From NCBI GenBank assembly GCA_005893275.1, contig VBOW01000039.1:1-40366 (forward strand): 40,366 nt of DNA, written 5' to 3'. This document shows, piece by piece, positions 615 to 34,256 of this stretch (the first letter of the stretch is position 1; every line of letters starts with the position of its first letter). This DNA comes from Candidatus Eisenbacteria bacterium (GTDB lineage: Bacteria; Eisenbacteria; RBG-16-71-46; SZUA-252). The notes under the pieces are model-generated. The model was given only the letters and a program-made list of their open reading frames with translations, was not told the origin of the DNA and did no database searches. The position numbers and the translations under genes are program-made.

Positions 615-644
615 AGCCTACGTTTCGATAACGAGCACTGTCAA
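615..644 (-). promoter_or_regulatory. Sigma70-like promoter for the lipoprotein gene
   Basis: Read on the minus strand, a perfect TTGACA (644-639) is followed by an 18-nt spacer and TAGGCT (620-615). Transcription would start near 608, leaving a leader of roughly 38 nt with an AGGAA site before the ATG at 570. The -35 box includes the TGA stop codon of the upstream GH57 gene (643-641). Prediction by motif only. Confidence 0.5.
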
Positions 645-2224
645 GCGAAAAGCCCTGGATCGAGCCCCGGGAAGATTGGATCAAGCTCTTCCAGCTCCGC
701 CAGTTCGGCCGGGTCGATCCGATTCGCCTTGAGGCCGCCCGCGAGGCGCTCGAACCGCGACAGGTGAAGCTCGGTCCGTCGAACGGCGTAGGGAACCAAC
801 GTGCCGGTCCGCATGATGAAGGCCCAGTCGCTCGCCTGCGCGAGCAAGAGCTCCCGGCCCGCTTGGACCAGCGCCCGCCTCACCAGAGAATCCCCCCGAT
901 CCCCCGCCCGCGCCAACGACTGCATCGTTTCGGCGGCATGGTTCAGGTGGCGGTAGATCCAGTCGTTCGAAGGGTCGAGCCATACCGCCGAGTACCCTCC
1001 TTCTCCCCAGCTCGAGGGGTGGAGCCGGCCCTCGGTCGCGCGCGGAAGGGCTCCCACCGCCTCCATCGGATCCACCGCTTGGATCTTGGAAGCCGCTCCG
1101 GCCGCTTCGTCCAGCACGTGCCCCAGCCACTCGGGCCCCTCGTACCACCAATGCCCCATCAGCTCCGCGTCGTACGGCGCGAGGAGGAGCGCGGGCTGTC
1201 CGATCCCGTCCGCGACCGCCTGGGCCTGGACGGAGCGCTCGCGCACGAAGTGAGCCGCGTGCTCGCGGGCGCGCGCCCTGGCGCGCCCCGGCTCGTAAGG
1301 CTCGCGATGGTCGCTCCGTCGATCGGTGATGCGGTAATACTTGAGACCAAGGTGCGTCCGCGTTCCGCCCGAGGGCAGGAACTCGCGGACCTCCTCCATC
1401 GGAAGGTCGAACCCCTGGTCGCGATAGTACTCGCGGTAGGACGCATCCCCTGGATAACCCTCGGTCGCGCTCCACACCTGCCTGGAGGAATCGGCGTCCC
1501 GCCCAAGCGCCAGTACACGGGCCTCGGTGCGAAACGGAGCGTAGGTGCCGGGAAGCGGGCGCGGGCAGGCGTGAAGGATCCCGTGCGTGTCCACGACGAA
1601 GAAGCGGATCCCGAACTCCGCGAGCACCGATTCCACGCCGGGCGAGTACCCGCACTCGGGAAGCCAGATTCCTTCGGGCCGGCGCCCGAGATGGCGCTCG
1701 AATTCCCGCACCGCCGCGCCGATCTGGGCGCGCCACGACGGCGCGCCGAGGCTCATGAGCGGCAGGAATCCGTGGGTCGCGCCGCACGTGATGAGCCGGA
1801 CGGCCCCTGCATCGAAGAGCGCGCGGAACGCCGAGATGACGTCCCGCCGGTATCGCTCCTCGAACTGGCTCAGCCCGGCGCGGAAGCGATCCCGGTAGTG
1901 GATCGCGAGCGCATGAAACCGAGGATCGTGGCGGGTCCGGGCGACTTCCCGCTCCGCGAGCTCGAGAAGGCGGCCGAGGCGAAAGGCGTAGCGCTTGCGA
2001 AGGAGCGGGTCCTCGAACATCGCGAGGAGCGTCGGGGAGAGCGAAATCGTGATTCGGCCGCGCGCCCCGCGTTGCGCGCGCTCCTCGAGCATGGCGAGAA
2101 GCGGAAGATAGGTTTCGGTGAGCGCCTCGAAGAGCCACCGCTCTTCCAGGGAGTCCTCGAATTCCGGATGGCGCACGTAGGGGAGATGCGCGTGAAGAAG
2201 AATGCACAGGTAACCCCGTGTCAT
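641..2224 (-). CDS. GH57 1,4-alpha-glucan branching enzyme
   Basis: 527 residues, the usual size of GH57 branching enzymes of the Thermococcus TK1436 type. These enzymes cut an alpha-1,4-glucan and rejoin the piece by an alpha-1,6 bond during glycogen synthesis, in the cytoplasm. The family motifs are visible: HAHLPYVRHPE near the N-terminus, the catalytic glutamate in WLPECGY (Glu190), VVDTHG, and the catalytic aspartate in APYDAELMGHWW (Asp352). The C-terminal helical domain contains the SNDWIYRHLNHA segment typical of this subgroup. There is no signal peptide. It lies 13 nt after the DUF4912 gene, a common partner of GH57 enzymes. The ribosome binding site is weak, so translation probably depends on coupling. 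GH57 assignment is firm; branching rather than amylase activity is likely. Confidence 0.88.
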   Translation of the reverse strand: MTRGYLCILLHAHLPYVRHPEFEDSLEERWLFEALTETYLPLLAMLEERAQRGARGRITISLSPTLLAMFEDPLLRKRYAFRLGRLLELAEREVARTRHDPRFHALAIHYRDRFRAGLSQFEERYRRDVISAFRALFDAGAVRLITCGATHGFLPLMSLGAPSWRAQIGAAVREFERHLGRRPEGIWLPECGYSPGVESVLAEFGIRFFVVDTHGILHACPRPLPGTYAPFRTEARVLALGRDADSSRQVWSATEGYPGDASYREYYRDQGFDLPMEEVREFLPSGGTRTHLGLKYYRITDRRSDHREPYEPGRARARAREHAAHFVRERSVQAQAVADGIGQPALLLAPYDAELMGHWWYEGPEWLGHVLDEAAGAASKIQAVDPMEAVGALPRATEGRLHPSSWGEGGYSAVWLDPSNDWIYRHLNHAAETMQSLARAGDRGDSLVRRALVQAGRELLLAQASDWAFIMRTGTLVPYAVRRTELHLSRFERLAGGLKANRIDPAELAELEELDPIFPGLDPGLFA

Positions 2225-2237
2225 CGAGCGACCCCGA

Positions 2238-2801
2238 TCAGGGACGAGGCTTTCCGGGAGGCGGAGGCGCGAGATAGCGGGCGGCGGAGCTCGGACCGCC
2301 GCCGGGACCGCCCTCCGCGCGCGAGCGCTCGAGGAGCCAGGCCCGCGCCTCGGGCGTCAAGCTCCACTCCCCCTCTTCGGCGCACGGGCCGTCCGGGGGG
2401 ACCGGAACCCACGAGGAGCGAAGCAGCACCTCGAAGGCATCGTGGAGGGCGAGACCCAAGAGAGCGCGGCATTGCCCGCCGGCCCGCGGCAGCTTCACAT
2501 ACCAGCGCTCTCCGCCCAGCGCATCGGGAAGCTCCACGCTCGTCAAGACCGCGCCAGGCGCTCGCTCCTGCTCACGGCGTTCGATCCGAATTTGATACCG
2601 CAGCGGGCTCTTGTGGTCCCGCGCGATTCCCTGCGCCCGGGCGTGGAGCCCGGCGGTCAGCTCCCAGACCGCGAGGACAGAGCGGGGATCACGGACGAGG
2701 AGGTAGAGGCGGTCCTCCCCGTAACGGCGGCCGCGGAGCGTCGAGAGAGGCGGCCCCCCGACCGCGGGCTGTGCGGGAGCGAGACGGTCGAAGGAGCTCA
2801 T
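2238..2801 (-). CDS. DUF4912 domain protein
   Basis: 187 residues. It matches the DUF4912 pattern: an LYLLVRDPRSVLAVWEL segment at about residues 31-47, then a Tyr-Gln-Ile-Arg strand, a WYVKLP segment and a short proline-rich end. Proteins of this family are small, cytosolic and of unknown function, and they often lie beside GH57 glycosidases and glycogen genes, as here. The fold resembles a carbohydrate-binding or immunoglobulin-like module, which is inference. The gene lies 18 nt after the metzincin-like gene and 13 nt before the branching enzyme, so it probably shares their transcript. Confidence 0.75.
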   Translation of the reverse strand: MSSFDRLAPAQPAVGGPPLSTLRGRRYGEDRLYLLVRDPRSVLAVWELTAGLHARAQGIARDHKSPLRYQIRIERREQERAPGAVLTSVELPDALGGERWYVKLPRAGGQCRALLGLALHDAFEVLLRSSWVPVPPDGPCAEEGEWSLTPEARAWLLERSRAEGGPGGGPSSAARYLAPPPPGKPRP

Positions 2802-20115: not shown

Positions 20116-22584
<2,469 letters not shown>

Positions 22585-22588
<4 letters not shown>

Positions 22589-23565
22589 GAAGATTCCACC
22601 TCGGATGAACCCACGTTTAGGCGCTGGTACGCGCCGCGCACCACCGCGTTCTCCCCCACCACCGAAGCATCCAGCACAATGTCTTCGACGATCGCCCCTT
22701 CGTTCACGATCGAGTTTCGTACCACCGCCTGGCGCACATGGGCCCGAGGGCCGATCGAAACGTGCGGACCGATGACGGCCGCCGTGACGTCCGCGGTGGG
22801 ATCCAAGGCCACGGGGGGGATCACCACCACCCCCTCACGGCTCACGGGCGTCGCGAGCTGCTCCAGCAGAGCCCGGTTGGTCTCGAGAAGGGTCTCCACT
22901 TTGCCGCAATCATACCAGCCCGACACCGGAAAGGGGCGGAGTTCCTCTCCGCGCTGCAGGAGCAGCTGGAGCGCGTCGGTGAGCTGCAGCTCGCCCCGCG
23001 TCAGCCGCCGCTCACGGACGAGGGTCTCCAGAGATTCAAAAAGGAGCGGCCCGTTGGAAATGTAATACAGGCCCACGAGCGCCAGGCTCGAAACGGGGCG
23101 CTCCGGCTTCTCCACGAGCTCTACGATCTTTCCCCCTCGGACGGTCGCCACTCCGAACCGGCTCGGATCGCTCACCTCGTGCACGCCGACCTGGGAGCCG
23201 TTCCGGACCAGGTCTCCGATCACCGCCTGCACGATCGTGTCGCCAAGGATAATGAGAAGCGGGGCCCGGCCGGCCGCCAGCTTCGCTTGCACGACCGCGT
23301 GCCCCAGCCCGAGCGGCTCCTCCTGCAGAACGCACTCGATCCGGAAATCTTGCCGAGAGGCCGCGTAGCGGCGGATGCGCTCACCCTGGGGACCCGGGGC
23401 GATCACCAAGATCACGCGCTCCAGCCCCGCCGGCTTCAACTGATCCAGGATGTGGGCCAGAATAGGCTTCCCCGCCACCATCAGAAGCGATTTCGGCGTG
23501 GTGTGGGTGAGCGGCCTGAGCCGCGAGCCGCTGCCCGCGACCGGGACGATGGCGACCGGTTTCAC
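22585..23565 (-). CDS. Sugar-1-phosphate nucleotidyltransferase
   Basis: 326 residues from GTG 23565, in a GTGA overlap with the isomerase gene. The N-terminal Rossmann-like domain starts with the nucleotidyltransferase signature ([19 protein letters not shown], then KPIL) and includes the GDT metal-site motif (IILGDTIV). The last 90 residues form a left-handed beta-helix of hexapeptide type ([20 protein letters not shown]). This layout fits glucose-1-phosphate thymidylyl-/uridylyltransferases of the long type or mannose-1-phosphate guanylyltransferases; no acetyltransferase active site is evident. It makes an NDP-sugar for envelope glycans. With the adjacent phosphoglucose/phosphomannose isomerase, glucose or mannose is the likely sugar. 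Confidence 0.85.
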
Positions 23566-24656
23566 TTCGCGAGGGCTCGTTTGAGGGCGTTGACGCCGGG
23601 AAGCGTGCTTGGATCGACGCCGTTCAGCAGCGCGAGGTAGAAGCTCACGAAATCCCCGCGTGACACGCCCCAGAGAAGCCGAAGCATCGGATCGTCTCCC
23701 TCCAGTACCACGGTTTCGACTTGGACCTTGCGCTGACGCAGATAGGTGGCGAGCCATTCGAAGCGCCGCACGATCCTCGGGTGGTCGCTCGGATCGCGAA
23801 GCAGGACCGCGGCGATCCGGCCGACGATCGCACCCGGGTTCACGAAGCCATCCACCTCGTTGTGATTCATCTCGGGAAGTACGGACACCCAGGCGAGGTG
23901 CTTCGAGTTCTCGTTGAATTGCCCCTTCCAGCGCAGCGCGACAGGCTCGGCCGTACGTTTGTCGGCCACCAGCACGATCGGGCGGCCCCTCAACCGTATC
24001 GCGAGTTGCTTGGCCGGGTTACGCGATTGTATCACATCGGGCGAGCAGGCGGTAGCGGCCTTATCCAAAGCCCTGGCCGCCCGCTCGAGGCGCGCCCCCG
24101 CGTCCGGGAGCGCCCCCAGGTGGTGGGCCACGTGGGCGAGCGCCGAGAAGGAATAACCGAGCGCCGCGCGCGGCGGGAACCCGGCGGGCAGGAGAGCGAC
24201 GGGAACGCCCTCCCCCTGCGCCCGCTGCACGAGGGTGCCGCCCGACGCAAGCACCAGGGCGCGCGTGCGGAGCTGGGTGAGCGCGCGAAAGGCGGTCAGC
24301 GTTTCCTCCGTCTCGCCGGAATAGGACGAAAACACGAGGAAATCCTCCGGCGTGATCCAGGACGGGGGCTCGTAGTGCCGCACGACGTGGACGGGTACCG
24401 CCCCCTCGCGATCGGCGAGGACGCGGAGGAGATCGCCTGCGATCGCAGATCCTCCCATTCCCAGCACGACGAGGCTGCGCGGCCGGCGCGGCTCGATGCG
24501 GCGCACCGCCTCCGCCGAGATGATCCCTCCCGCGCGAAGCTGGGCCGGGAACCCTTCGATCTTGCCGGCCATTCCGCCTGGGTCGAATCGTTCCACCCGG
24601 GCTTTCGAATCGAGAGGGCGCGGAGGAAGCGGCCGGCTCTCGCGAGCGCGGGTCAT
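23562..24656 (-). CDS. Bifunctional phosphoglucose/phosphomannose isomerase
   Basis: 364 residues from ATG 24656, which overlaps the ptsI stop as ATGA; the open extension upstream is inside ptsI. This is the archaeal-type SIS-fold PGI/PMI, which interconverts glucose-6-phosphate, fructose-6-phosphate and mannose-6-phosphate. Visible are the first SIS glycine loop ([13 protein letters not shown]), the phosphate-binding [11 protein letters not shown], and the diagnostic second-half segment with [10 protein letters not shown] and [10 protein letters not shown], whose Glu and His are catalytic. No canonical pgi gene is in the window. Placed directly after the PTS genes, it would take sugar phosphates entering through them toward glycolysis or sugar-nucleotide synthesis. 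Confidence 0.9.
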
Positions 24657-26401
24657 GCGGGCAGGAAGATTCCCGGGTACTGCCGGCTCATGAACTCCGT
24701 CACCACCGTGCGCACGTCGCTCGGCGTGCACAGGCTCATACACCGCTCCGCGAGCCCGCGCGCCTCGTCGTACGTGGAACCGCGGATGATCGTCTTGATC
24801 TCCGGAACGAGGTAGGGGCTCACACTGAACTCCTCGAGACCGAGGCCCACAAGAACCACCGCGTACAGCGGCTCCCCCGCCATCTCCCCGCAGATCCCCA
24901 CAGGGATTCCCGCGCGGTGACCCGCCTCCACGACGCTTTTGATCGCGCGGAGCACCGCGGGATGGAGCGGCTCATAAATCTCGGAAATCGCCTCATTGCC
25001 GCGATCCACGGCGAGGGTGTACTGAATCAGATCGTTCGTCCCGATGCTCACGAAATCCGCCTCTTGGGAAAGCCGGTCGATACAGAACACGGACGCCGGT
25101 GTCTCCACCATGATCCCGAGGGGCACGTTCTGCGCCATCGCGACGCCCTCCTTGCGAAGCTGGAGCTTCACGCGTTCCACGATTTCCCGCGCCCGCCTCA
25201 GATCCTCGAGACCGATCACCATCGGAAACATGATCCGCAAGTTCCCGTAAGCGCTGGCGCGGTAGATCGCGCGGAGCTGGGTACGGAAGATCTCTTCGCG
25301 GCGGAGGGAAAACCGCAGCCCGCGCATCCCGAGGAAGGGATTTTTCTCGATCGGCGTTCCAAGGTAGGAGGCGAACTTGTCTCCCCCCACGTCGAGCGTG
25401 CGGATGATGACCGGCTTCGGGTCCATCGCCTCGACGATCGAGCGGTAGGCGTTGAACTGAGCGTCCTCGGTCGGCAACTGCTTTCGCGCGAGATAGAAGA
25501 ACTCCGTCCGATAAAGCCCGATGCCGTCGGCTCCGTTCTCGAGGATCCCAGGGAGCTCCTCGGGGACCTCGAGATTCGCGCCGAGCCCGATGGCGCGGCC
25601 GTCTGCCGTCACGCAGCGTTGGTCCTTGAGCTGGGTCAGCTTCGTGGCGAGCTCGCGATAGTGCTCGCGCTTGCGCTCGTGATCGGCGAGCGTCTCGGGA
25701 TCCGGATTGAAGATCGCGATCCCGCGCGTGCCGTCCACGATGGCGATCGCGCCCCTGCGCGCCGACTCGGTCGCGCTCTTGAGCCCGACTACCGCGGGAA
25801 TCCCGCGCGCGCGAGCCATGATCGCGGTATGGGAGGTGCGTCCGCCGAGGTCGGTGGCGAACCCGAGCGCCATGTTCCGCTGAAGGAGCGCCATCTCGCT
25901 GGGCGGGAGATCGTTCGCGACGATGAGCGACGGCTCGGTGAGATCGCTCAGCGAACGGGCTCGGACGCCGCCCAAATGGGCGAGGACGCGCCGACGGACG
26001 TCGCGAACGTCGATCGCACGGCCGCGGTAGTACTCCCCGTCCGCCTCGTCCAGGCGCGCGGCCACGGCGGTCAGAATTCTCCGGTACGCAAAGGAGGCCG
26101 GCTTTCGCTCCCGCTCGATCACGGCAAGGGTCTGAGCGGTTGCGTCAGGATCTTCCAGAATCTCGATCTGGGCGTCCAGGATCCGAGCGTGCTCTTCGCC
26201 GGTTTCGAGCGCGATTTTCTCCCGCAGCTCCCGAACCTCCACCAGACTCTCGCGGATCGCCTTGCGAAAGCGCTCCTGCTCGGCGGCTGGATCCTGGACG
26301 CGAAGATCGCCGTCCTGGACCTCGGCCTCCTCGGGATCGACGATGTGGACCGGGCCGATCCCGATCCCCGGCGACGCGGCGATTCCTTGAAGGGTCGTCA
26401 T
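24653..26401 (-). CDS. ptsI: PTS enzyme I (phosphoenolpyruvate-protein phosphotransferase)
   Basis: 582 residues, normal EI length. It autophosphorylates from phosphoenolpyruvate and passes the phosphate to HPr. The N-terminal HPr-binding domain is followed by the active-site [13 protein letters not shown] (His191). The PEP-binding domain has [19 protein letters not shown], FGxMVETP-type [25 protein letters not shown] and ICGEMAG with the conserved cysteine. The ATG overlaps the HPr stop (ATGA). All catalytic residues I can check are present, so this EI should be functional. It is the end of the PTS block; the sugar-phosphate isomerase gene follows with another ATGA overlap. Confidence 0.97.
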
Positions 26402-26664
26402 TCCTCACCGAATTTGTTGTTCACCACGCGCACCAGGGATTCCAGCGCCTCCCGCTCGTCTTTCCCGTCGGCGCGGAGGGTGAGCTGCGCGCCCATCTCG
26501 GCGGCGAGCATCATGACCCCCAGAATGCTCTTGCCGTTCACCTCGAGCCCGTCGCGGATGACAAAGATGTGTGAGGCGAATTTCGCGGCTTCCTTCACGA
26601 ACACGGAGCACGCCCGCGCGTGAAGCCCGAGGCGGTTTTGAATCGTGACCGTCTGCTCCACCAT
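26398..26664 (-). CDS. ptsH: Phosphocarrier protein HPr
   Basis: 88 residues, usual HPr size. It carries phosphate from EI (His15) to EIIA. The HPr-kinase target serine is present ([10 protein letters not shown], Ser46), matching the hprK gene in the same cluster. The active-site loop reads GLHARACS instead of the usual GLHARPA: Pro18 is Ala and Ala19 is Cys, while His15 and Arg17 are kept. This makes phosphotransfer likely but possibly altered in rate or redox-sensitive, which is inference. It lies 16 nt after the EIID gene and is coupled to ptsI. Confidence 0.95.
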
Positions 26665-26680: not shown

Positions 26681-27517
26681 CTAGACGCGGGTCGAAAGAG
26701 CCAGGGCCAAAAGAGCCGCCGCGAGCGCGATCTCGACGCTCCGTCCCGGCCATCGCTTGAGTCCGAGAGCCGTCCCCAGAAACCCCAGGACGAAGGGCGC
26801 CAGAACGAGTGTGATGTGCGCGAGCCCTTGGCCGGCTGGATCCGCGCTCTTCGTGAGGACCGAGAGCGTGAGAACCACCAGCAATCCGAATCCGAACGCG
26901 CTGGCCCGCTCGAAAATATGCGTGAGCATCGCGAGCTTGAGCGAGTGGAGGAGCTTCCCCGGTTCGTCCGCCAGCGCGTACCCTCGTGGCACGCCGGCGA
27001 AGCGAAATCTCAGCGCGACGGCATTGTACGTCAAAAGCGCGAGAAGGGGGCAGACCAGGACGCGGAGGTCCGGCCCCAGCGGGTCCGCGAGCGGAAGGAG
27101 CCCCATACCCAGGATGCCGACCAGCCCCGCAAACGGCCTCAGGGTCACCCAGAACAGGGGGTCCCCGAGCGCAGCCAGGGGGCTTGCGAGCGCGCGCTTC
27201 ACGTCCTCGATCTGCGTCTCCTCGATGGGCGCTCCCCGCGCCCGGCGCTCTTCGAGGCGCGCGACGACCCCGAGCACGTAGCCCGCCAGGACCGGGTGCG
27301 TGCCGAAGAAACCCAAATGCCGGGCGAGGGCCTTACCCTGCTCCCCGGCTCCCGAGTGGAGACGTCGAAGAACCGGAAGGAGCGCGAACCCGAAGCCGAG
27401 ACCCTGTTGACGCTCGGGCGAGAAGAGAGCCTGGAGGTAGAACGATCGCGACGTGACCTTCGCCAGGTCCAAGCCGCGAAGCGGGGAGGCGGTCCCCGCG
27501 GGAGGGGTCTCGATCAT
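26681..27517 (-). CDS. PTS mannose-family transporter subunit IID
   Basis: 278 residues from ATG 27517, in an ATGA overlap with EIIC; the long open frame upstream to 28255 is antisense/out-of-frame over EIIC. It matches the EIID family: SFYLQALFSPERQQGLGFGFALLPVLRRL, read here in two parts at about residues 25-53, then HLGFFGTHPVLAGYVLG, ALASPLAALGDPLFWVTLRP, and several hydrophobic helices at the C-terminus. EIID and EIIC together form the membrane channel of mannose-type PTS complexes. The sugar cannot be told from sequence. Confidence 0.93.
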   Translation of the reverse strand: MIETPPAGTASPLRGLDLAKVTSRSFYLQALFSPERQQGLGFGFALLPVLRRLHSGAGEQGKALARHLGFFGTHPVLAGYVLGVVARLEERRARGAPIEETQIEDVKRALASPLAALGDPLFWVTLRPFAGLVGILGMGLLPLADPLGPDLRVLVCPLLALLTYNAVALRFRFAGVPRGYALADEPGKLLHSLKLAMLTHIFERASAFGFGLLVVLTLSVLTKSADPAGQGLAHITLVLAPFVLGFLGTALGLKRWPGRSVEIALAAALLALALSTRV

Positions 27518-28269
27518 GGCGCTGCGCCCCGGACCCGGAGGAGCAGGAGGAGCACCGCGAGCGCGCCGGCCGCCGCCCAGCGCAGTCCGTGCCGCGCCGC
27601 GCGCACATGGGTATGGAAGCCGGACGCGAACGCGGCGCCGAGGAGCACGGCAAAGACGAGCCCCGCCCTCGGGCCGGTGACGGTGTCGGCGAGCCGGGGC
27701 AGGATGAGCGATGCCGCGGCGATACCCGCCACCGTTCCCGCCGCGGACCAGCTCGCGCCCCGCAAGAAGACCCGGAGCACGCCCCCCCAGTAGAGCGCCT
27801 CGAACGCGCGAAGCCTTCCTTCCCGAGCCAGCTCGTCGGCGCGCGCGGCGCGCGCCCGGTTCCTCGCGCGGAGAGGCGCCTCCATCCATCCCCCAACCAC
27901 GGAGGCGACAAGACCCGCGATCGTACCGACCAGAACCCAGAGGATTCCGCCGGTCGACACCGAGACCGAGGGGGTGAGCCGCTCCATGCAGAAAAGCGCG
28001 ACCGAGACGCCGATCACCCCCGCCGTCGCGGCATCGCGCGGGCGCTGCGCCGCGGGCAGCGAGGGGTCCGTGAGGAGAAGCTGAAGCAGGACGCCGACGC
28101 CGAGCGGGATTCGAAGCGCCCAGAGCTCCCATTGTGTTCCGGGGTTCCACAGGGCTCCGGCGAGACAGGCGCCGACGAGCGGCTGGCCGATCATGAGATT
28201 CCAGCCCGCCGAGCGGTCGGTGGCGAGGATGCCCCCAAGAAGGGCGACACGCCATAGCTCAGGGAGCAG
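27514..28269 (-). CDS. PTS mannose-family transporter subunit IIC (probable CTG start)
   Basis: 251 residues from a CTG at 28269. The first ATG in frame is at 28194, but starting there deletes the conserved first helix: the 25 codons before it encode LPELWRVALLGGILATDRS, which matches the N-terminus of EIIC proteins. Upstream the frame is closed by TAG (28275-28273), and the only start-like codon after it is this CTG. A textbook GGAGGAGG site lies 6 nt before it. The protein has several hydrophobic helices and forms the channel with EIID. The start overlaps the GH57 stop by 11 nt. A sequencing error at the start codon is the main alternative. Confidence 0.85.
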   Translation of the reverse strand: MLPELWRVALLGGILATDRSAGWNLMIGQPLVGACLAGALWNPGTQWELWALRIPLGVGVLLQLLLTDPSLPAAQRPRDAATAGVIGVSVALFCMERLTPSVSVSTGGILWVLVGTIAGLVASVVGGWMEAPLRARNRARAARADELAREGRLRAFEALYWGGVLRVFLRGASWSAAGTVAGIAAASLILPRLADTVTGPRAGLVFAVLLGAAFASGFHTHVRAARHGLRWAAAGALAVLLLLLRVRGAAP

Positions 28270-30385
28270 CGCCTACCTCCTCCACCCGGGCCCTGATTCG
28301 AATCGGCCCGGTCTTGGCTCCGGAACGGAATCCGACCAGGAACGCCGTCCCCTGGTAGACGCGCTCGGCGCCCGATTCAGAGAGCGAGACGGTTTCGACG
28401 GGGGACCACTCCACACGCGCGGCCGGCTCGAACTGGAGCGTCAACGCCACACGGAGGTACTCGGAGTCCTCGAGCCTCATCGAGGTGACCGAGTCCGCTT
28501 CTCCGGTCGAGCCCGGGGAGCACGCCACGGGCGCCTTCCCCTCGAGAGAAAGGCGGCGTCCCGGCGCGGCCCCGGTCAGGATGCTCAGGTTCCATTCGCT
28601 CACGAGCCAGGCGTCGCCCGGGACGCCGGCGAATCGGACCTCGAACTCGGCCTCGTCGCGACCCGGGGCGATCTGTTTCTCGATCGTGCCGCGCGGATCG
28701 CCCATGGACGCGAGAGCGATGAGCGGGTCCGCGTGGGCCATGGGTTCGCCCGCGCCCGCCGGCGCGAACGTGAGCCCCACGGGGCCGAGACCAATCAAAG
28801 CGCGGAGGCTCCCCGACGCGGCGACCTCGGGCGCGGGGAGCAGCCACTCCTGCGAGGCGTACCTCGGGCGCTCGTCGTACTGCAAGAGCCGCTCGAGCCC
28901 GGGCTCCTTGAGCTGGATCGATCCGTGGATCGTCTCGGGTTTGTGAGCAGTCGCGCTCCCCTCTCCTTGCGCGCCCGCGCGCCGCGCGGCTTCTTCGACG
29001 CGGGCGTGATAGGCTTCACGCCTGCGGGCGATCACACACGCGAAGTCGTGCGGGCGCCGGCGCTCGGCAAGCTCCACGATCGCCCCCGAGGCGTTCACCG
29101 CCACCCCCACCGCGACCCGGGGTGACTTGAGCCGGTGCTCCTCCTCGCCGCGCTCGACGATCCATCCGCTCGACGGTCCCTGAAGCTCATCGGCGAGCGC
29201 GTCGGCGCGGAGCATGTGGCCCCGCACCGCTGCCCGCAGGTGCGGCAGGTAGAATCCGCCGAAGACCCCGTGCCAGTAGGAGCAGTTGCACTGCGCGCGA
29301 TGCACCTCGCGCCTCGCCTCTTCGTACTGGGTCCGGCCGAGGCAAGAGCGGCTCGCGTGCTCGATTTTCGCGCTCAGCTCCGTCACGCGCCGGTGCAGGC
29401 GCCGCGATTCCGGATACCGCGCGAAGAACTCGCGCCAGTTCCCGGTCGCGATCCGTCTCGCGAGATCGGCCTTGCCCTGCGCCTCGAGCCAACGCTGCTC
29501 CGATTCGATCCGGACCTGCTCGCCGGCCGGGAGCGCCCAGAGCATCATTTCGGGGTAGCTCGCGGCCGGAAGCGCGATGCTCCGCGCCGGGAGCCCCGCG
29601 TCCCAGACGTCGCCGAGCGGCATCGCCTCGACCGCGCGGCGCTCTTCCAGGGCCCCGAGCCAGGACTCGAGCCAGCCGTCGCGGTAGACCCAGTCGTGCG
29701 TGCGGGGCCAGATGCCGAACTTCTCCCCATCGTCCCCGAAGACGCGGACTCCGGCGGCCGCGCGCGACGTGCCACGCAGAAAATCGAGAAGCTCGGGGAC
29801 GGGCTGAAACGGGATCCGGTAGCGGAGCTCGCGCTCGATCGGGAACACACCGACGCGGCCCATCGTGGACTCGACCCAATACGGCTCGCGGAGGGTGCCC
29901 GAATCCGCCCCGGCGAGAAGAAAGTGATGATCGTCGACCAGCGTGTATTCGATCCCCGCGCGCGAGAGCGCGTCGGGCAGGTCGGGCTCCCAGACCCGCT
30001 CCGCGATCCAGGCTCCGCGCGCGGTCACGCCGAATCGCGCCTTCAAGTAGCCGTTCATCCTCTCGATCTGCCCCTGCTGGTCCCACGGGGGAATCACGGC
30101 GAGGATCGGCTCGTAGTATCCCCCCGAAAGAAGCTCCACCTGGCCGCGGCTGCAGAGCGTCCCGAGCGCGTCAAGAATCGAAGGCTCGTGCTTCTCGAGC
30201 CACTCGAAGAGCGGCCCCGACCAATGCATGGAGAGGCGCACGCCGGGATGGCGCGCGAGCGCGTCGAGAAAGGGCCGGTACGCGCGCTCGACCGCCTCGG
30301 CGAAGACCGAATCGAAATTTCCGACCGGTTGGTGGTTGTGGAGCGCGAAGGCCAGCCGCACCGGCGCCCCGTCGAGCGGCATCAC
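28259..30385 (-). CDS. GH57 4-alpha-glucanotransferase / alpha-amylase-like enzyme
   Basis: 708 residues, close to the Thermococcus 4-alpha-glucanotransferases that disproportionate maltodextrins. The GH57 barrel has FALHNHQPVGNFD at the start, the nucleophile region AWIAERVWEPDL (Glu129), and FGDDGEKFGIWP with the acid/base aspartate (Asp218 or Asp219). A helical region and a C-terminal beta-sandwich domain (the DUF1925/DUF1926 layout) follow, including a QCNCSYWHGVFGG segment. No signal peptide, so cytoplasmic. It starts at GTG 30385 (GTGA overlap with EIIB) or at the next codon, ATG 30382. Its place between EIIB and EIIC of a PTS operon is unusual and suggests that the PTS is tied to alpha-glucan metabolism. 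Confidence 0.9.
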   Translation of the reverse strand: MMPLDGAPVRLAFALHNHQPVGNFDSVFAEAVERAYRPFLDALARHPGVRLSMHWSGPLFEWLEKHEPSILDALGTLCSRGQVELLSGGYYEPILAVIPPWDQQGQIERMNGYLKARFGVTARGAWIAERVWEPDLPDALSRAGIEYTLVDDHHFLLAGADSGTLREPYWVESTMGRVGVFPIERELRYRIPFQPVPELLDFLRGTSRAAAGVRVFGDDGEKFGIWPRTHDWVYRDGWLESWLGALEERRAVEAMPLGDVWDAGLPARSIALPAASYPEMMLWALPAGEQVRIESEQRWLEAQGKADLARRIATGNWREFFARYPESRRLHRRVTELSAKIEHASRSCLGRTQYEEARREVHRAQCNCSYWHGVFGGFYLPHLRAAVRGHMLRADALADELQGPSSGWIVERGEEEHRLKSPRVAVGVAVNASGAIVELAERRRPHDFACVIARRREAYHARVEEAARRAGAQGEGSATAHKPETIHGSIQLKEPGLERLLQYDERPRYASQEWLLPAPEVAASGSLRALIGLGPVGLTFAPAGAGEPMAHADPLIALASMGDPRGTIEKQIAPGRDEAEFEVRFAGVPGDAWLVSEWNLSILTGAAPGRRLSLEGKAPVACSPGSTGEADSVTSMRLEDSEYLRVALTLQFEPAARVEWSPVETVSLSESGAERVYQGTAFLVGFRSGAKTGPIRIRARVEEVGAAP

Positions 30386-30867
30386 GCCCCCCCGCCGAGC
30401 AAAGGCGCGAGCCTTCGCGCGGGGTTGGTCGGAAGATCCTGCGCCGTAAGCCGGACCCCCAGCCGCTCCAGGGCAAGGAGCATTTCGCGCTCCGTGGGAC
30501 TCAGATACACGTAGGGGAGCACTTGGACCTTCCCCTCCGCGTGATGGAGCCCACCCACGTTCACCTCATGGAGCGGGAACCCGCCCTCTTTGAGCCGAAG
30601 CGGCTCCTCGGGTCCGGGAAACAGCAAGAACGCCCGCTCCGCCTCGGTGGTCGCGAGCGTCGAAGGAAGGAGCGCCTCGGAAATCGAGAGTGCCACGGCG
30701 CGCGCGCCCTCCGGCGCGGCGAAAAGGTAGAGGCCCGCGCGACCGGGATCCGCGCGGAGCGAATCAGAGACGATGCCGATCCACGTCGGCCGAAGTGGTC
30801 CGCCCCAGCCGTGGACGACCTGCCCGTGGATGAGCCGGTCGTCAATCCGCGCGAGCAGAAGCGGCAC
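30382..30867 (-). CDS. PTS mannose-family subunit IIB
   Basis: 161 residues, the usual EIIB(Man) size. It takes phosphate from EIIA on His14 in the signature LARIDDRLIHGQVVHGW and passes it to the sugar at the EIIC/EIID channel. Cytoplasmic. The start is GTG 30867, one base after the EIIA stop, with no ribosome binding site visible, so re-initiation after EIIA is likely. The 3' end overlaps the GH57 start. Active-site residues are intact. Confidence 0.93.
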   Translation of the reverse strand: MPLLLARIDDRLIHGQVVHGWGGPLRPTWIGIVSDSLRADPGRAGLYLFAAPEGARAVALSISEALLPSTLATTEAERAFLLFPGPEEPLRLKEGGFPLHEVNVGGLHHAEGKVQVLPYVYLSPTEREMLLALERLGVRLTAQDLPTNPARRLAPLLGGGA

Positions 30868-30868
30868 G

Positions 30869-31273
30869 CTAGAGTACGGTGATGCCGGCTTTCCCCTTGG
30901 CTTCCAGGCGCGGCAGAAGCTCGTCCAAGGGAAGCGTGTCGCGGTAGTGGAAGAACTCGAGAAGCATGGGGAGGTTGACCCCGGTAACCTTTCTCACGAG
31001 CCTTTCACCGTGCTGGGCGCGGCGCGAGGCGATACCGCAGCTACCCGCGGCCAGGTCGGTGAAAAGCACGACCGGGCGGTCTCCCGGAACGTCCCGCACT
31101 CGCTCTTCGATCGCGCGGCTCAGGGCGTCGCTCGAGTAGCCGTCATTGCTCAGGACCTGGACGTCGGACTGGGCGCCGAGAATCCCTTCGACCGTGCGGA
31201 GGAGCTCCGAGCCGAGCGCGGCGTGCGTCACGAGGAGCGCGAAGGGCCGACGCGGCACCTGGGCCGGGTTCAT
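30869..31273 (-). CDS. PTS mannose-family subunit IIA
   Basis: 134 residues. It is the EIIA(Man) fold: the phosphorylated histidine is His17 in LLVTHAALGSELL, followed by a strand with VLFTDLAAGSCG and a C-terminal GVNLPMLLEFF segment, all typical. It takes phosphate from HPr and gives it to EIIB. It starts with ATG 31273, 6 nt after hprK. In Deltaproteobacteria an EIIA of this class often follows hprK and rapZ; here rapZ is not present. Confidence 0.92.
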   Translation of the reverse strand: MNPAQVPRRPFALLVTHAALGSELLRTVEGILGAQSDVQVLSNDGYSSDALSRAIEERVRDVPGDRPVVLFTDLAAGSCGIASRRAQHGERLVRKVTGVNLPMLLEFFHYRDTLPLDELLPRLEAKGKAGITVL

Positions 31274-31279
31274 GTTCGA

Positions 31280-32263
31280 TCACTCGGTGTCATCTCGGAC
31301 CAACGGATTGGAGAGAAGCTTGGCGCGCATGCTCTCGATCAGGCGTTCGTTCAGCGCGCGGGCCGGGTGGTATCCGTACACTTTGACGAGATGGTTGAGC
31401 GAGATCACCTCGGCGATGACCGTGATGTTCTTGCCGGGAAGAATCGGGACGGTCACGAGGGGAATCTCGGTGTCGAGGTACTTGGCATGCATGTCGTCGA
31501 GGCCGAGGCGCTCGTAGTCCGCCTTGCTGTCCCACTCCGTCAGGTGCACTTCGACTTCGACGCGTTTCTGCCCGCGTATCGCGCGGATGCCGAAGATCGC
31601 CTGAACATCGATCACCCCAAGACCGCGGATCTCCATCGTGTGCTTCAGGACCTCGTTGCAGGCTCCGATCAGGATATCGCCGTGCCGGCGCGTGATCCGG
31701 ACCACGTCGTCGGCGACGAGCCGGTGTCCGCGCTCCACCAGATCGAGCGCGGTCTCGCTCTTGCCGATCCCGCTTCTCCCGGTGAACAGGAGCCCGACCC
31801 CGTAGACGTCCACCAGCGAAGCGTGCACGCTAACCGAAGGCGCGAAGACCCAGTCGAGGTAGGCGGTGAGCTGGTGGATGAAGGGCGTGGTGTCCTGCGG
31901 CGTTCGAAGGAGGGGCACCTTGTGCCGGTTCGCGCGCTCGAGCAGACCCTCCGGAAGCTGGAGCCCCTTCGTCACGATGATGCCCGGCATCGCAAACTGA
32001 AAGAGGCGGTCCAGCGCCTCCGCGCGCCCTTTCGGGCTCAGGGTTCCGAGGTAGGCGATCTCGGTCCGGCCCATGATCTGGATCCGTTCGAAGAGGAAAT
32101 TCTCCGAGTAGCCCATGAGGGCCATGCCCGGACGATTGATGTCGCTGATCGTGATCGGAACGCGGGACTCGAGCCCCTGGGTGAGGACCTCGAGCGAGAG
32201 GGTCTCGCGCTGCTGCTCGTAGAGCTGTTCGATCGTGATTTGGGCGGTGCTAATCGAGCTCAA
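31280..32263 (-). CDS. hprK: HPr kinase/phosphorylase
   Basis: 327 residues. It phosphorylates HPr on Ser46 with ATP or pyrophosphate and also removes that phosphate, controlling PTS flux. The N-terminal DRTGG-like domain is followed by the P-loop LLFTGRSGIGKSETAL at about residues 157-172 and the family signature EIRGLGVIDVQAIFG. The start is TTG 32263 with a TAGGA site 5 nt upstream, overlapping hpf by 14 nt. Its target serine is present in the HPr encoded 4.6 kb downstream in the same cluster. Confidence 0.95.
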   Translation of the reverse strand: MSSISTAQITIEQLYEQQRETLSLEVLTQGLESRVPITISDINRPGMALMGYSENFLFERIQIMGRTEIAYLGTLSPKGRAEALDRLFQFAMPGIIVTKGLQLPEGLLERANRHKVPLLRTPQDTTPFIHQLTAYLDWVFAPSVSVHASLVDVYGVGLLFTGRSGIGKSETALDLVERGHRLVADDVVRITRRHGDILIGACNEVLKHTMEIRGLGVIDVQAIFGIRAIRGQKRVEVEVHLTEWDSKADYERLGLDDMHAKYLDTEIPLVTVPILPGKNITVIAEVISLNHLVKVYGYHPARALNERLIESMRAKLLSNPLVRDDTE

Positions 32264-32786
32264 GCAGTCCTACTTGCCCGTCCTCCAGGCGATAGACGAT
32301 CCGAATGCCGCCCCCGTCCGGCTCGGAAAAGGCCAACACGGCCAGGCGGCTCTTGAGAAGCATCCGCACGGCCTGGTCCACGGTCAGGGTCCGCTGCTTG
32401 GGTCGAGACCGGACGATCTCGACCCCGCCCTGCTCCCGGCGTGTCGCTTCCGGAGCGAGCACGGGGATTCCCTGGCGGCGGAGGCTCTCCCCGCGTTTCT
32501 TCCTGTCCTTCAACCGTTCCTTGCGACGCTTCAACGCTCGCTCCTGCTTCTCTAGCACCGCGTCGAGCGCCACGCGAGGATCCGGATCCTGGGCGCGCCC
32601 GGCCAAGTCCACACCGTTTCCGAATATGCGAAGCTCCGCCATGTGGCGGTAGCCCTCCTCGGTCACGGTCAGCTGCGCGCTGATCAGGTGCGAGAAGTAT
32701 CGCTGCAACTTCTCGATTCTCCGCTCCGCGTACTCGCGGTAGTCGGGAGTCACCGTCCAGTGCCGCCCCTTGATCGTGATCTGCAT
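32250..32786 (-). CDS. hpf: Ribosome hibernation promoting factor, long form
   Basis: 178 residues. The N-terminal S30AE domain (MQITIKGRHWTVTPDYREYA, through about residue 95) binds the decoding centre of idle ribosomes. A charged linker (KRRKERLKDRKKRGESLRR) leads to the C-terminal domain with LTVDQAVRMLLKSRLAVLAF, which dimerises 70S ribosomes into 100S particles in long-form HPF. It is the usual neighbour of rpoN, 18 nt downstream of it. Confidence 0.93.
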   Translation of the reverse strand: MQITIKGRHWTVTPDYREYAERRIEKLQRYFSHLISAQLTVTEEGYRHMAELRIFGNGVDLAGRAQDPDPRVALDAVLEKQERALKRRKERLKDRKKRGESLRRQGIPVLAPEATRREQGGVEIVRSRPKQRTLTVDQAVRMLLKSRLAVLAFSEPDGGGIRIVYRLEDGQVGLLELD

Positions 32787-32804: not shown

Positions 32805-34256
32805 TCATGTTCGATTCTCGATCCGCGACGCGTAACGTCGGCGGGCCCGTGCCGGCAATATGCGCAAGGCCTCCCGGTACTTGGCCACCGTCCTCCGCGC
32901 GATCTTGAGACCTTGTTCGTGCAAGAGCTCCGCGATGCGCTGATCGCTGAGCGGCTCGCGCTTGTCCTCTCCTTGGATCAGCTGTGAGATCTTCCCCTTC
33001 GCTACCTTGGCTGAAACATCGTCTCCGTCTTCAGTCTGGAGCCCGCTCGAGAAGAAATATTTCAGCTCGAAAACACCTCGCGGAGTCTGAACGTACTTGT
33101 TCGTCGTGACGCGGCTCACGGTCGATTCGTGCATGCCGATCTGGTTCGCGATCTGCTGCAGCGTGAGCGGCCTCAAGCCTTCCACGCCCCTCTCGAAGAA
33201 CTCCCGCTGCTCCTCCACGATCCGGCGCATCACCTTGATCATCGTCTTTCGCCGCTGCTCGATCGTCTGGATGAGCCACTTGGCCGAGTTGAGCTTTTCG
33301 GTGATGTACCTGCGGGTCGTGTCCTCGACGGAATTCCTGTTCCGCAGCATTTGCTGGTAGGCGTGGCTGATCCTGAGCCGGGGCACGTTCCGATCGTTGA
33401 GCGCGACAACGAAATCCTCGCCGACCCGTTCCACGATCAGGTCCGGAACCACGTAGCGCGTTTCCTCGGCCGCGATCTCCTGGGCCGGCCGGGGATCCAG
33501 AGTGCCGATCGTGTCGCTCGCCGCCTGGACATCCTCGACCGTGCACTTGAGATTCCGCGCGATCTCCGAGAATCGCTTGGCGAGGAGGTTATCGAATTGC
33601 TCCTGAACGATCCGGCCGGCAAGGGTCGTCTCCATTTTCTTCTGGACGATTTGGATCCAGAGGCACTCCTGGAGGTTCCGGGCGCCGATCCCCGCCGGCT
33701 CGAACGTCTGGATCACGGCGAGCACTTCCTCGACGCGCTCGGGACTCACCTGGAAGGTCTCGCCGACCTCCTCGACCGTGGTCTGCAGGTACCCGTTCTC
33801 ATCGATGGAACCGATCAGGAATTCTCCGATCTCCATGGCCGGCGGATCCAGATTGCTCAGGCGCAGCTGCTCCAGGAGATGATCCCCGAGGGTTTTCACG
33901 GTGACCGGGACGCGCTCGTAGAACTCGGCGTCGCCGTCGTTCGTGCGCGGGGCCGACACCGTCTCGAACTGGTCGGGCCACAGCTCCCCCCAGTCGATTT
34001 CCTGTTCCGCCTTCGCCTCGGTCTCCGGCGGCTGCTCGGCCTCCTCCTGCCCGACCTCCTTCTTGACCTCTTCGATCTCCTCGACCTCTTCCACCTCGTC
34101 CACCTCTTCGAGGAGGGGATTGCGCTCCAATTCCATCTTGAGCGCCTGCTGGAGCTCGAGGGTGGGCATCTGGAGCAGCTTGAGCGCGTGCTGCAAACGC
34201 TGCGTCATGATCAGCGTCGGCTTCTGCTGCATGCTCAGGCTGTGTTTCATTTCCAT
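32805..34256 (-). CDS. rpoN: RNA polymerase sigma-54 factor
   Basis: 483 residues. Region I at the N-terminus is glutamine- and leucine-rich (MTQRLQHALKLLQMPTLELQ), as needed for enhancer-dependent activation. A highly acidic region II follows (runs of EVEEVEEIEE). The C-terminal part carries the helix-turn-helix QIANQIGMHESTVSRVT and the RpoN box ARRTVAKYRE at about residues 452-461, which binds the -24 element. Sigma-54 promoters need AAA+ activators; none are encoded in the window. An ATG two codons downstream (34250) is an alternative start. The gene order lptB-rpoN-hpf is widely conserved. Confidence 0.97.
   Translation of the reverse strand: MEMKHSLSMQQKPTLIMTQRLQHALKLLQMPTLELQQALKMELERNPLLEEVDEVEEVEEIEEVKKEVGQEEAEQPPETEAKAEQEIDWGELWPDQFETVSAPRTNDGDAEFYERVPVTVKTLGDHLLEQLRLSNLDPPAMEIGEFLIGSIDENGYLQTTVEEVGETFQVSPERVEEVLAVIQTFEPAGIGARNLQECLWIQIVQKKMETTLAGRIVQEQFDNLLAKRFSEIARNLKCTVEDVQAASDTIGTLDPRPAQEIAAEETRYVVPDLIVERVGEDFVVALNDRNVPRLRISHAYQQMLRNRNSVEDTTRRYITEKLNSAKWLIQTIEQRRKTMIKVMRRIVEEQREFFERGVEGLRPLTLQQIANQIGMHESTVSRVTTNKYVQTPRGVFELKYFFSSGLQTEDGDDVSAKVAKGKISQLIQGEDKREPLSDQRIAELLHEQGLKIARRTVAKYREALRILPARARRRYASRIENRT

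Follow-up and report, generated by a model that had tools for sequence, protein, structure and literature searches.

A gene for a predicted GH57 4-alpha-glucanotransferase lies between the EIIB and EIIC genes of a mannose-family PTS operon in Candidatus Eisenbacteria, and GH57 genes of this kind occupy the same or an equivalent place beside the HPr kinase/HPr relay in more than 140 genomes of four surveyed, little-studied phyla. Because it recurs so widely, the arrangement is far beyond chance. The linkage suggests that the glycogen store is under the control of this relay or is regulated together with it.

Gene order in the PTS cluster

The window, the whole 40,366-nucleotide stretch of DNA that was analysed, belongs to a 2.88 Mb draft genome. 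On its minus strand the genes run LptC-LptB-RpoN-HPF-HPr kinase-EIIA-EIIB-GH57-EIIC-EIID-HPr-EI-PGI/PMI-NTP-transferase-MAT-AHCY, with LptB, RpoN and MAT assigned only by reading of the sequence and by conserved place. The order from EIIA to EI given in a preliminary description of this DNA was confirmed, with every gene on the minus strand. The main features were as follows.

32805..34256, minus strand: RpoN sigma-54 (ORF; assigned by reading of the sequence and because relatives keep it ahead of hpf-hprK)
32250..32786, minus strand: ribosome hibernation factor HPF (PF02482)
31280..32263, minus strand: HPr kinase/phosphorylase (TIGR00679, 348 bits over cut-off)
30869..31273, minus strand: PTS mannose-family EIIA (PF03610, E 1.3e-12; phosphoryl site His17)
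30382..30867, minus strand: PTS mannose-family EIIB (PF03830, E 5.7e-32; phosphoryl site His14)
28259..30382, minus strand: predicted GH57 4-alpha-glucanotransferase, 707 aa from ATG 30382 (alternative GTG start 30385)
27514..28269, minus strand: PTS mannose-family EIIC (homologues match EII-Sor; weak Foldseek match; probable CTG start 28269)
26681..27517, minus strand: PTS mannose-family EIID (PF03613, E 2.5e-35; ATGA overlap with EIIC)
26398..26664, minus strand: HPr phosphocarrier with His15 and Ser46 (PF00381, TIGR01003)
24653..26401, minus strand: Enzyme I of the PTS, His191 (TIGR01417, 609 bits over cut-off)
23562..24743, minus strand: bifunctional phosphoglucose/phosphomannose isomerase-like protein (PF10432; best NCBIfam PRK08674, under its cut-off)
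2238..2801, minus strand: DUF4912 protein adjoining the branching enzyme (PF16258, E 7e-12)
641..2224, minus strand: GH57 alpha-glucan branching enzyme, separate locus (PF03065 and PF09210 BE_C)

The rpoN, hprK, IIA-Man, ptsH and ptsI genes were all present in one cluster. The mannose family was represented by EIIA, EIIB, EIIC and EIID with phosphorylatable histidines in EIIA and EIIB, EIIC being placed there through its homologues and a weak fold match. The divergent EIIC itself had no Pfam match; EII-Sor was matched by 15 of 23 aligned EIIC homologues. Six man-PTS chains, the top two included, were among the Foldseek matches of its AlphaFold model (pLDDT 88), none of which fell under E 0.001 (best E 0.023, prob 1.0). 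An Rfam scan of the window gave no match. Genes for S-adenosylmethionine synthetase and S-adenosylhomocysteine hydrolase (20116-22588, minus strand) follow the PTS, PGI and NTP-transferase genes, an order kept across most of the phylum.

The EIIB/GH57 junction reads gTGATG, which gives a 1 nt overlap from ATG 30382 and the previously described 4 nt overlap if GTG 30385 is used. The overlap of about 11 nt described for GH57 and EIIC is obtained, at 11 nt, only with an EIIC start at CTG 28269. From the upstream TAG to codon 26 the EIIC frame contains no ATG, GTG or TTG; the CTG lies inside the last GH57 codons, behind GGAGGAGGT, a strong Shine-Dalgarno sequence. Relatives have CTG with a Shine-Dalgarno sequence (L004, L005) or GTG (L006) at this position. 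EIIC probably starts at CTG 28269, and the 11 nt overlap is supported by GGAGGAGGT and by the start codons kept in these three loci. A gene caller limited to ATG, GTG and TTG would place the EIIC start at ATG 28194 and so cut some 25 residues from the first transmembrane helix.

The GH57 enzyme and the phosphorelay residues

All three domains of GH57 4-alpha-glucanotransferases (PF03065, PF09094 and PF09095) scored over cut-off, and the protein matched TLGT of Thermococcus litoralis (PDB 1k1w) with E 1.2e-109. The nucleophile E128 and acid/base D217, aligned to 1k1w, were invariant in 131 of 131 relatives, and inspection of the N-terminus revealed no signal peptide. These features predict a cytoplasmic-looking 4-alpha-glucanotransferase of the TLGT type with intact catalytic residues, in agreement with the enzyme type first proposed. 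In the phosphorelay, the histidine was conserved in 49 of 49 EIIB sequences covering the site and in 50 of 50 EIIA sequences, and His15 and Ser46 of HPr were invariant (51/51). Because the catalytic and phosphorylation residues are invariant, both the relay and GH57 should be active. No residue separated PTS-linked from unlinked GH57 proteins, so the sequences gave no hint of a phosphorylation site or an HPr-binding patch.

The closest GH57 outside the host genome (L004) had 83 % identity, and the G+C content of the gene (0.70) was similar to that of EIIB (0.69) and EIIC (0.73). A few PTS-linked loci (L006/L124, L114, L234 and L259) had an interrupted or truncated GH57 frame, through either decay or assembly error. 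A third GH57 protein (742 aa, PF03065 only) is encoded elsewhere in the window's genome (G000:C19; L001:616-2844, minus strand).

Conservation of the linkage within and beyond the phylum

Searches with PF09094 (the middle domain of GH57), PF03830 (EIIB) and PF07475 (HPr kinase) covered 47 genomes of the Eisenbacteria phylum, and the fetched neighbourhoods were annotated with iterated profiles; the survey genomes were mostly drafts. This GH57 was found in 21 genomes and in two more where it runs off a contig end, and all 23 copies lay in the PTS cluster, so that the EIIB-GH57-EIIC order, which the preliminary description had proposed to look for in the same phylum, proved to be conserved. GH57 directly followed EIIB in all but one genome, the exception having a contig break at GH57 and then EIIC-EIID-HPr-EI. 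The insertion was present in 4 of 4 genomes of the window's genus. Three sister genera in its family had neither the insertion nor any PF09094 protein, and EIIB and EIIC abutted in all 18 fetched genomes of the phylum that carry no GH57. According to the preliminary description, two findings would have told against its reading: an arrangement unique to this assembly, or close relatives with EIIB and EIIC adjacent and GH57 elsewhere. The arrangement was not unique; the sister genera do have adjacent EIIB and EIIC genes, but such a GH57 was found nowhere in their genomes. Within the phylum GH57 was gained or lost at least six to seven times while the PTS was retained throughout, and the relay therefore works without GH57.

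The linkage was also detected in other phyla. Among the best 80 GH57 genes of a scan with one genome per species, 23 were PTS-linked, belonging to Eisenbacteria, Elusimicrobiota, Hydrogenedentota, Sumerlaeota, Zixibacteria and other phyla. In three further surveyed phyla (Hydrogenedentota, Elusimicrobiota and the phylum of genome G061), 120 of 123 examined GH57 copies lay in an hprK/HPr cluster and the remaining three were at contig ends. The 43 Hydrogenedentota copies comprised 38 flanked by HPr kinase and/or HPr, two at contig edges with HPr kinase within 3 kb, and the three at contig ends. Linkage was found in 20 of 20 copies in the phylum of G061 (one loosely) and in 60 of 60 examined loci in Elusimicrobiota, the phylum of the Endomicrobium genome, where 89 genomes had a match.

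The general gene order was hprK-(rapZ)-EIIA-EIIB-GH57-EIIC-EIID-HPr-EI. RapZ was confirmed between hprK and EIIA or GH57 in three loci (L015:8063-8977, L019:4467-5366 and L029:7006-7905), a position at which the window's cluster has no rapZ. In Hydrogenedentota the order was hprK-GH57-HPr-EI and the EII genes were missing from the cluster; a mannose-type EIIA was absent altogether from the nine genomes of this phylum that were checked and from four other genomes with the linkage, making 13 of 19 linked genomes checked. As GH57 stays beside HPr where the mannose-type EII genes are missing, its tie is argued to be with the HPr relay rather than with sugar uptake. The earlier statement that known clusters have EIIB and EIIC side by side is true of the classical mannose PTS and of the sister genera that lack GH57; it fails in these phyla, where the GH57 slot is a standing feature. 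Two Hydrogenedentota loci carried a PAD_porph gene (peptidyl-arginine/agmatine deiminase-type) directly upstream of GH57 (L245:2604-3668 and L252:2323-3396).

GH57 distances tracked those of EIIB (rho 0.83), EI (0.79) and HPr kinase (0.75) to the same extent as the distances of PTS genes tracked one another, which fits inheritance as a unit, with a contribution from shared genome ancestry. A rule that GH57 is linked wherever HPr kinase is present was ruled out by 24 of 50 sampled genomes with unlinked GH57, outside the surveyed phyla, that have HPr kinase elsewhere, and linkage is therefore not obligatory. A single origin of the linkage gained no support from the GH57 tree, reconstructed by a quick method: nine changes between linked and unlinked, as gains or as losses, are needed, at least four of them forced by well-supported branches.

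Association with glycogen genes

A branching enzyme gene (PF03065 and PF09210) was located between EIIB and the glucanotransferase in four loci of the Elusimicrobiota phylum (L228, L233, L260 and L261), and before the glucanotransferase and HPr-EI in L082 and L229, L082 having DUF4912 ahead of the branching enzyme. The window also has this gene pair, DUF4912 with branching enzyme, 26 kb from the PTS cluster. Among unlinked GH57 orthologues, that of L060 adjoined glycogen synthase and that of L035 adjoined phosphorylase and pyruvate kinase. Because genes for glycogen synthase and branching enzyme are present, the latter in-operon in some relatives, the likely substrate of GH57 is the cell's own glycogen. 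The tight coupling and the glucan-centred link with HPr kinase in the preliminary description gain support from the four-phylum linkage, the intact catalytic residues and the in-operon branching enzyme; the equal stoichiometry put forward there is putative.

The window's genome has a GT5 glycogen synthase. GT35 glycogen phosphorylase was absent from all four genomes of its genus (G000 and G041-G043) and present in 5 of 5 genomes of the three sister genera, which are without this GH57. This contrast within the family was not significant on independent pairs, and most GH57-bearing Eisenbacteria outside the window's genus have GT35. A comparison of GH57 presence with GT5 was uninformative, GT5 being near-universal in the phylum.

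The PEP/pyruvate ratio, which drives Enzyme I, is set by pyruvate kinase. The gene for this kinase was found beside GH57 in a Sumerlaeota locus, after hprK-GH57 (L039:12263-13768), and in a Marinimicrobia locus, before GH57 and phosphorylase (L035:8502-9932).

Possible roles of the linkage

The explanation we favour, tentatively and at a little under an even chance, is that the phosphorelay is wired firmly into the turnover of alpha-glucan (glycogen), GH57 probably being tuned according to how HPr or EIIB is phosphorylated. An EI-HPr relay fed by PEP, an HPr kinase and, here, mannose-type EIIABCD would have the alpha-glucan-remodelling GH57 as a core member. The cytoplasmic enzyme would work on alpha-1,4-glucan (glycogen or maltodextrin), shifting or freeing short chains. 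HPr would be phosphorylated at His15 from PEP via EI and at Ser46 via HPr kinase, and its state, or that of EIIB, may tune GH57 by contact; we infer such direct tuning because of the precedent of HPr and glycogen phosphorylase in E. coli. Glucan turnover would thereby follow the PEP/pyruvate ratio and the energy state. The direction is a guess: turnover may be favoured with His-phosphorylated HPr, in starvation, and restrained during sugar inflow. A broader and more doubtful proposal is that in several phyla EI, HPr and HPr kinase serve primarily in glycogen control, HPr or EIIB in particular phosphorylation states binding GH57 and, in some lineages, the neighbouring branching enzyme. An alpha-glucan enzyme would then be a direct output of the PTS, even without mannose-type EII genes.

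A close and strong rival, with a substantial though lesser chance of being right, is co-expression only, whereby a glycogen-turnover enzyme and the relay are made together from one promoter and by coupled translation but make no contact. The overlapping start and stop codons would couple translation, general-metabolism genes (PGI, NTP-transferase, MAT and AHCY) travel in the same cluster, and GH57 carries no interaction signature. However, sharing a promoter would need neither so precise a position, which is conserved across phyla (EIIB-GH57-EIIC, or hprK-GH57-HPr), nor the persistence of GH57 beside HPr where mannose-type EII genes are missing. That GH57 entered this lineage's operon by chance or by a recent transfer, without functional meaning, could be read from the sister genera, whose EIIB-EIIC junction is intact and which have no such GH57, but it is extremely improbable, being refuted by the surveys (more than 140 genomes in four phyla); moreover, the G+C content of GH57 matches that of EIIB and EIIC and its distances co-vary with those of the PTS genes.

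Glucose or maltose released by GH57 might instead be phosphorylated or taken up again by the mannose-type PTS, the two being coupled by feeding and not by regulation. Without GT35, as in the window's genus (0/4), breakdown would yield free sugar and not glucose-1-phosphate, and PGI/PMI is next in the operon. Such coupling is nevertheless unlikely: PTS permeases normally act on sugar as it enters and not on sugar already in the cell, mannose-type EIIA is missing from 13 of 19 linked genomes, and the GT35 pattern neither extends to most GH57-bearing Eisenbacteria of other genera nor shows an association on independent pairs. The nine Hydrogenedentota that keep hprK-GH57-HPr-EI without a mannose-type EIIA weaken the earlier proposal, in which the sugar to be transported comes from GH57.

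The phylum-spanning, position-exact linkage of GH57 would name a concrete output of the HPr kinase/HPr relay beyond Firmicutes and Proteobacteria, namely carbon storage, that is testable using four or five purified proteins. It would also offer a natural explanation for PTS sets without a sugar permease of their own, and a genome-context handle on glycogen metabolism in the mostly uncultured phyla Eisenbacteria, Hydrogenedentota and Elusimicrobiota.

Comparison with known systems

No report of a linkage between GH57 and the PTS or HPr kinase was found in the open-licence literature searched. The predicted enzyme resembles Thermococcus litoralis TLGT (1k1w) in its barrel, middle and C-terminal domains and in the motifs ERVW and DDGEKFG, but it is bacterial and encoded inside a PTS operon, and its activity is a prediction. 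The cluster rpoN-ptsK-IIA-Man-ptsH-ptsI has been described in Gram-negative bacteria (Comas et al. 2008, PMC2405797), D. vulgaris having a putative transporter of the mannose class. The window likewise has rpoN, hprK, mannose-family IIA, HPr and EI together; however, that account mentions no glucanotransferase or glycogen gene, whereas GH57 lies between EIIB and EIIC here. In Brucella, an 'incomplete' PTS with a working phosphorelay, HPr kinase and EIIA-Man but no permease is thought to be regulatory (PMC2937029). No glucan enzyme appears in the portions of that source drawn on here, while the Hydrogenedentota genomes checked lack EIIA-Man as well, its place being taken by GH57.

The nearest functional parallel is E. 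coli, in which HPr binds and regulates glycogen phosphorylase (Seok et al. 1997, as cited in PMC5320558; PMC11046441). The target described in these citing accounts is a GT35 phosphorylase, an enzyme absent from the window's genus (0/4). In the window the enzyme is instead a GH57, its gene is inside the PTS operon and contact with HPr is putative. The likeness, as far as these accounts describe the E. coli system, is that a PTS phosphocarrier acts on a glycogen-degrading enzyme, so that glycogen turnover is tied to the state of the PTS.
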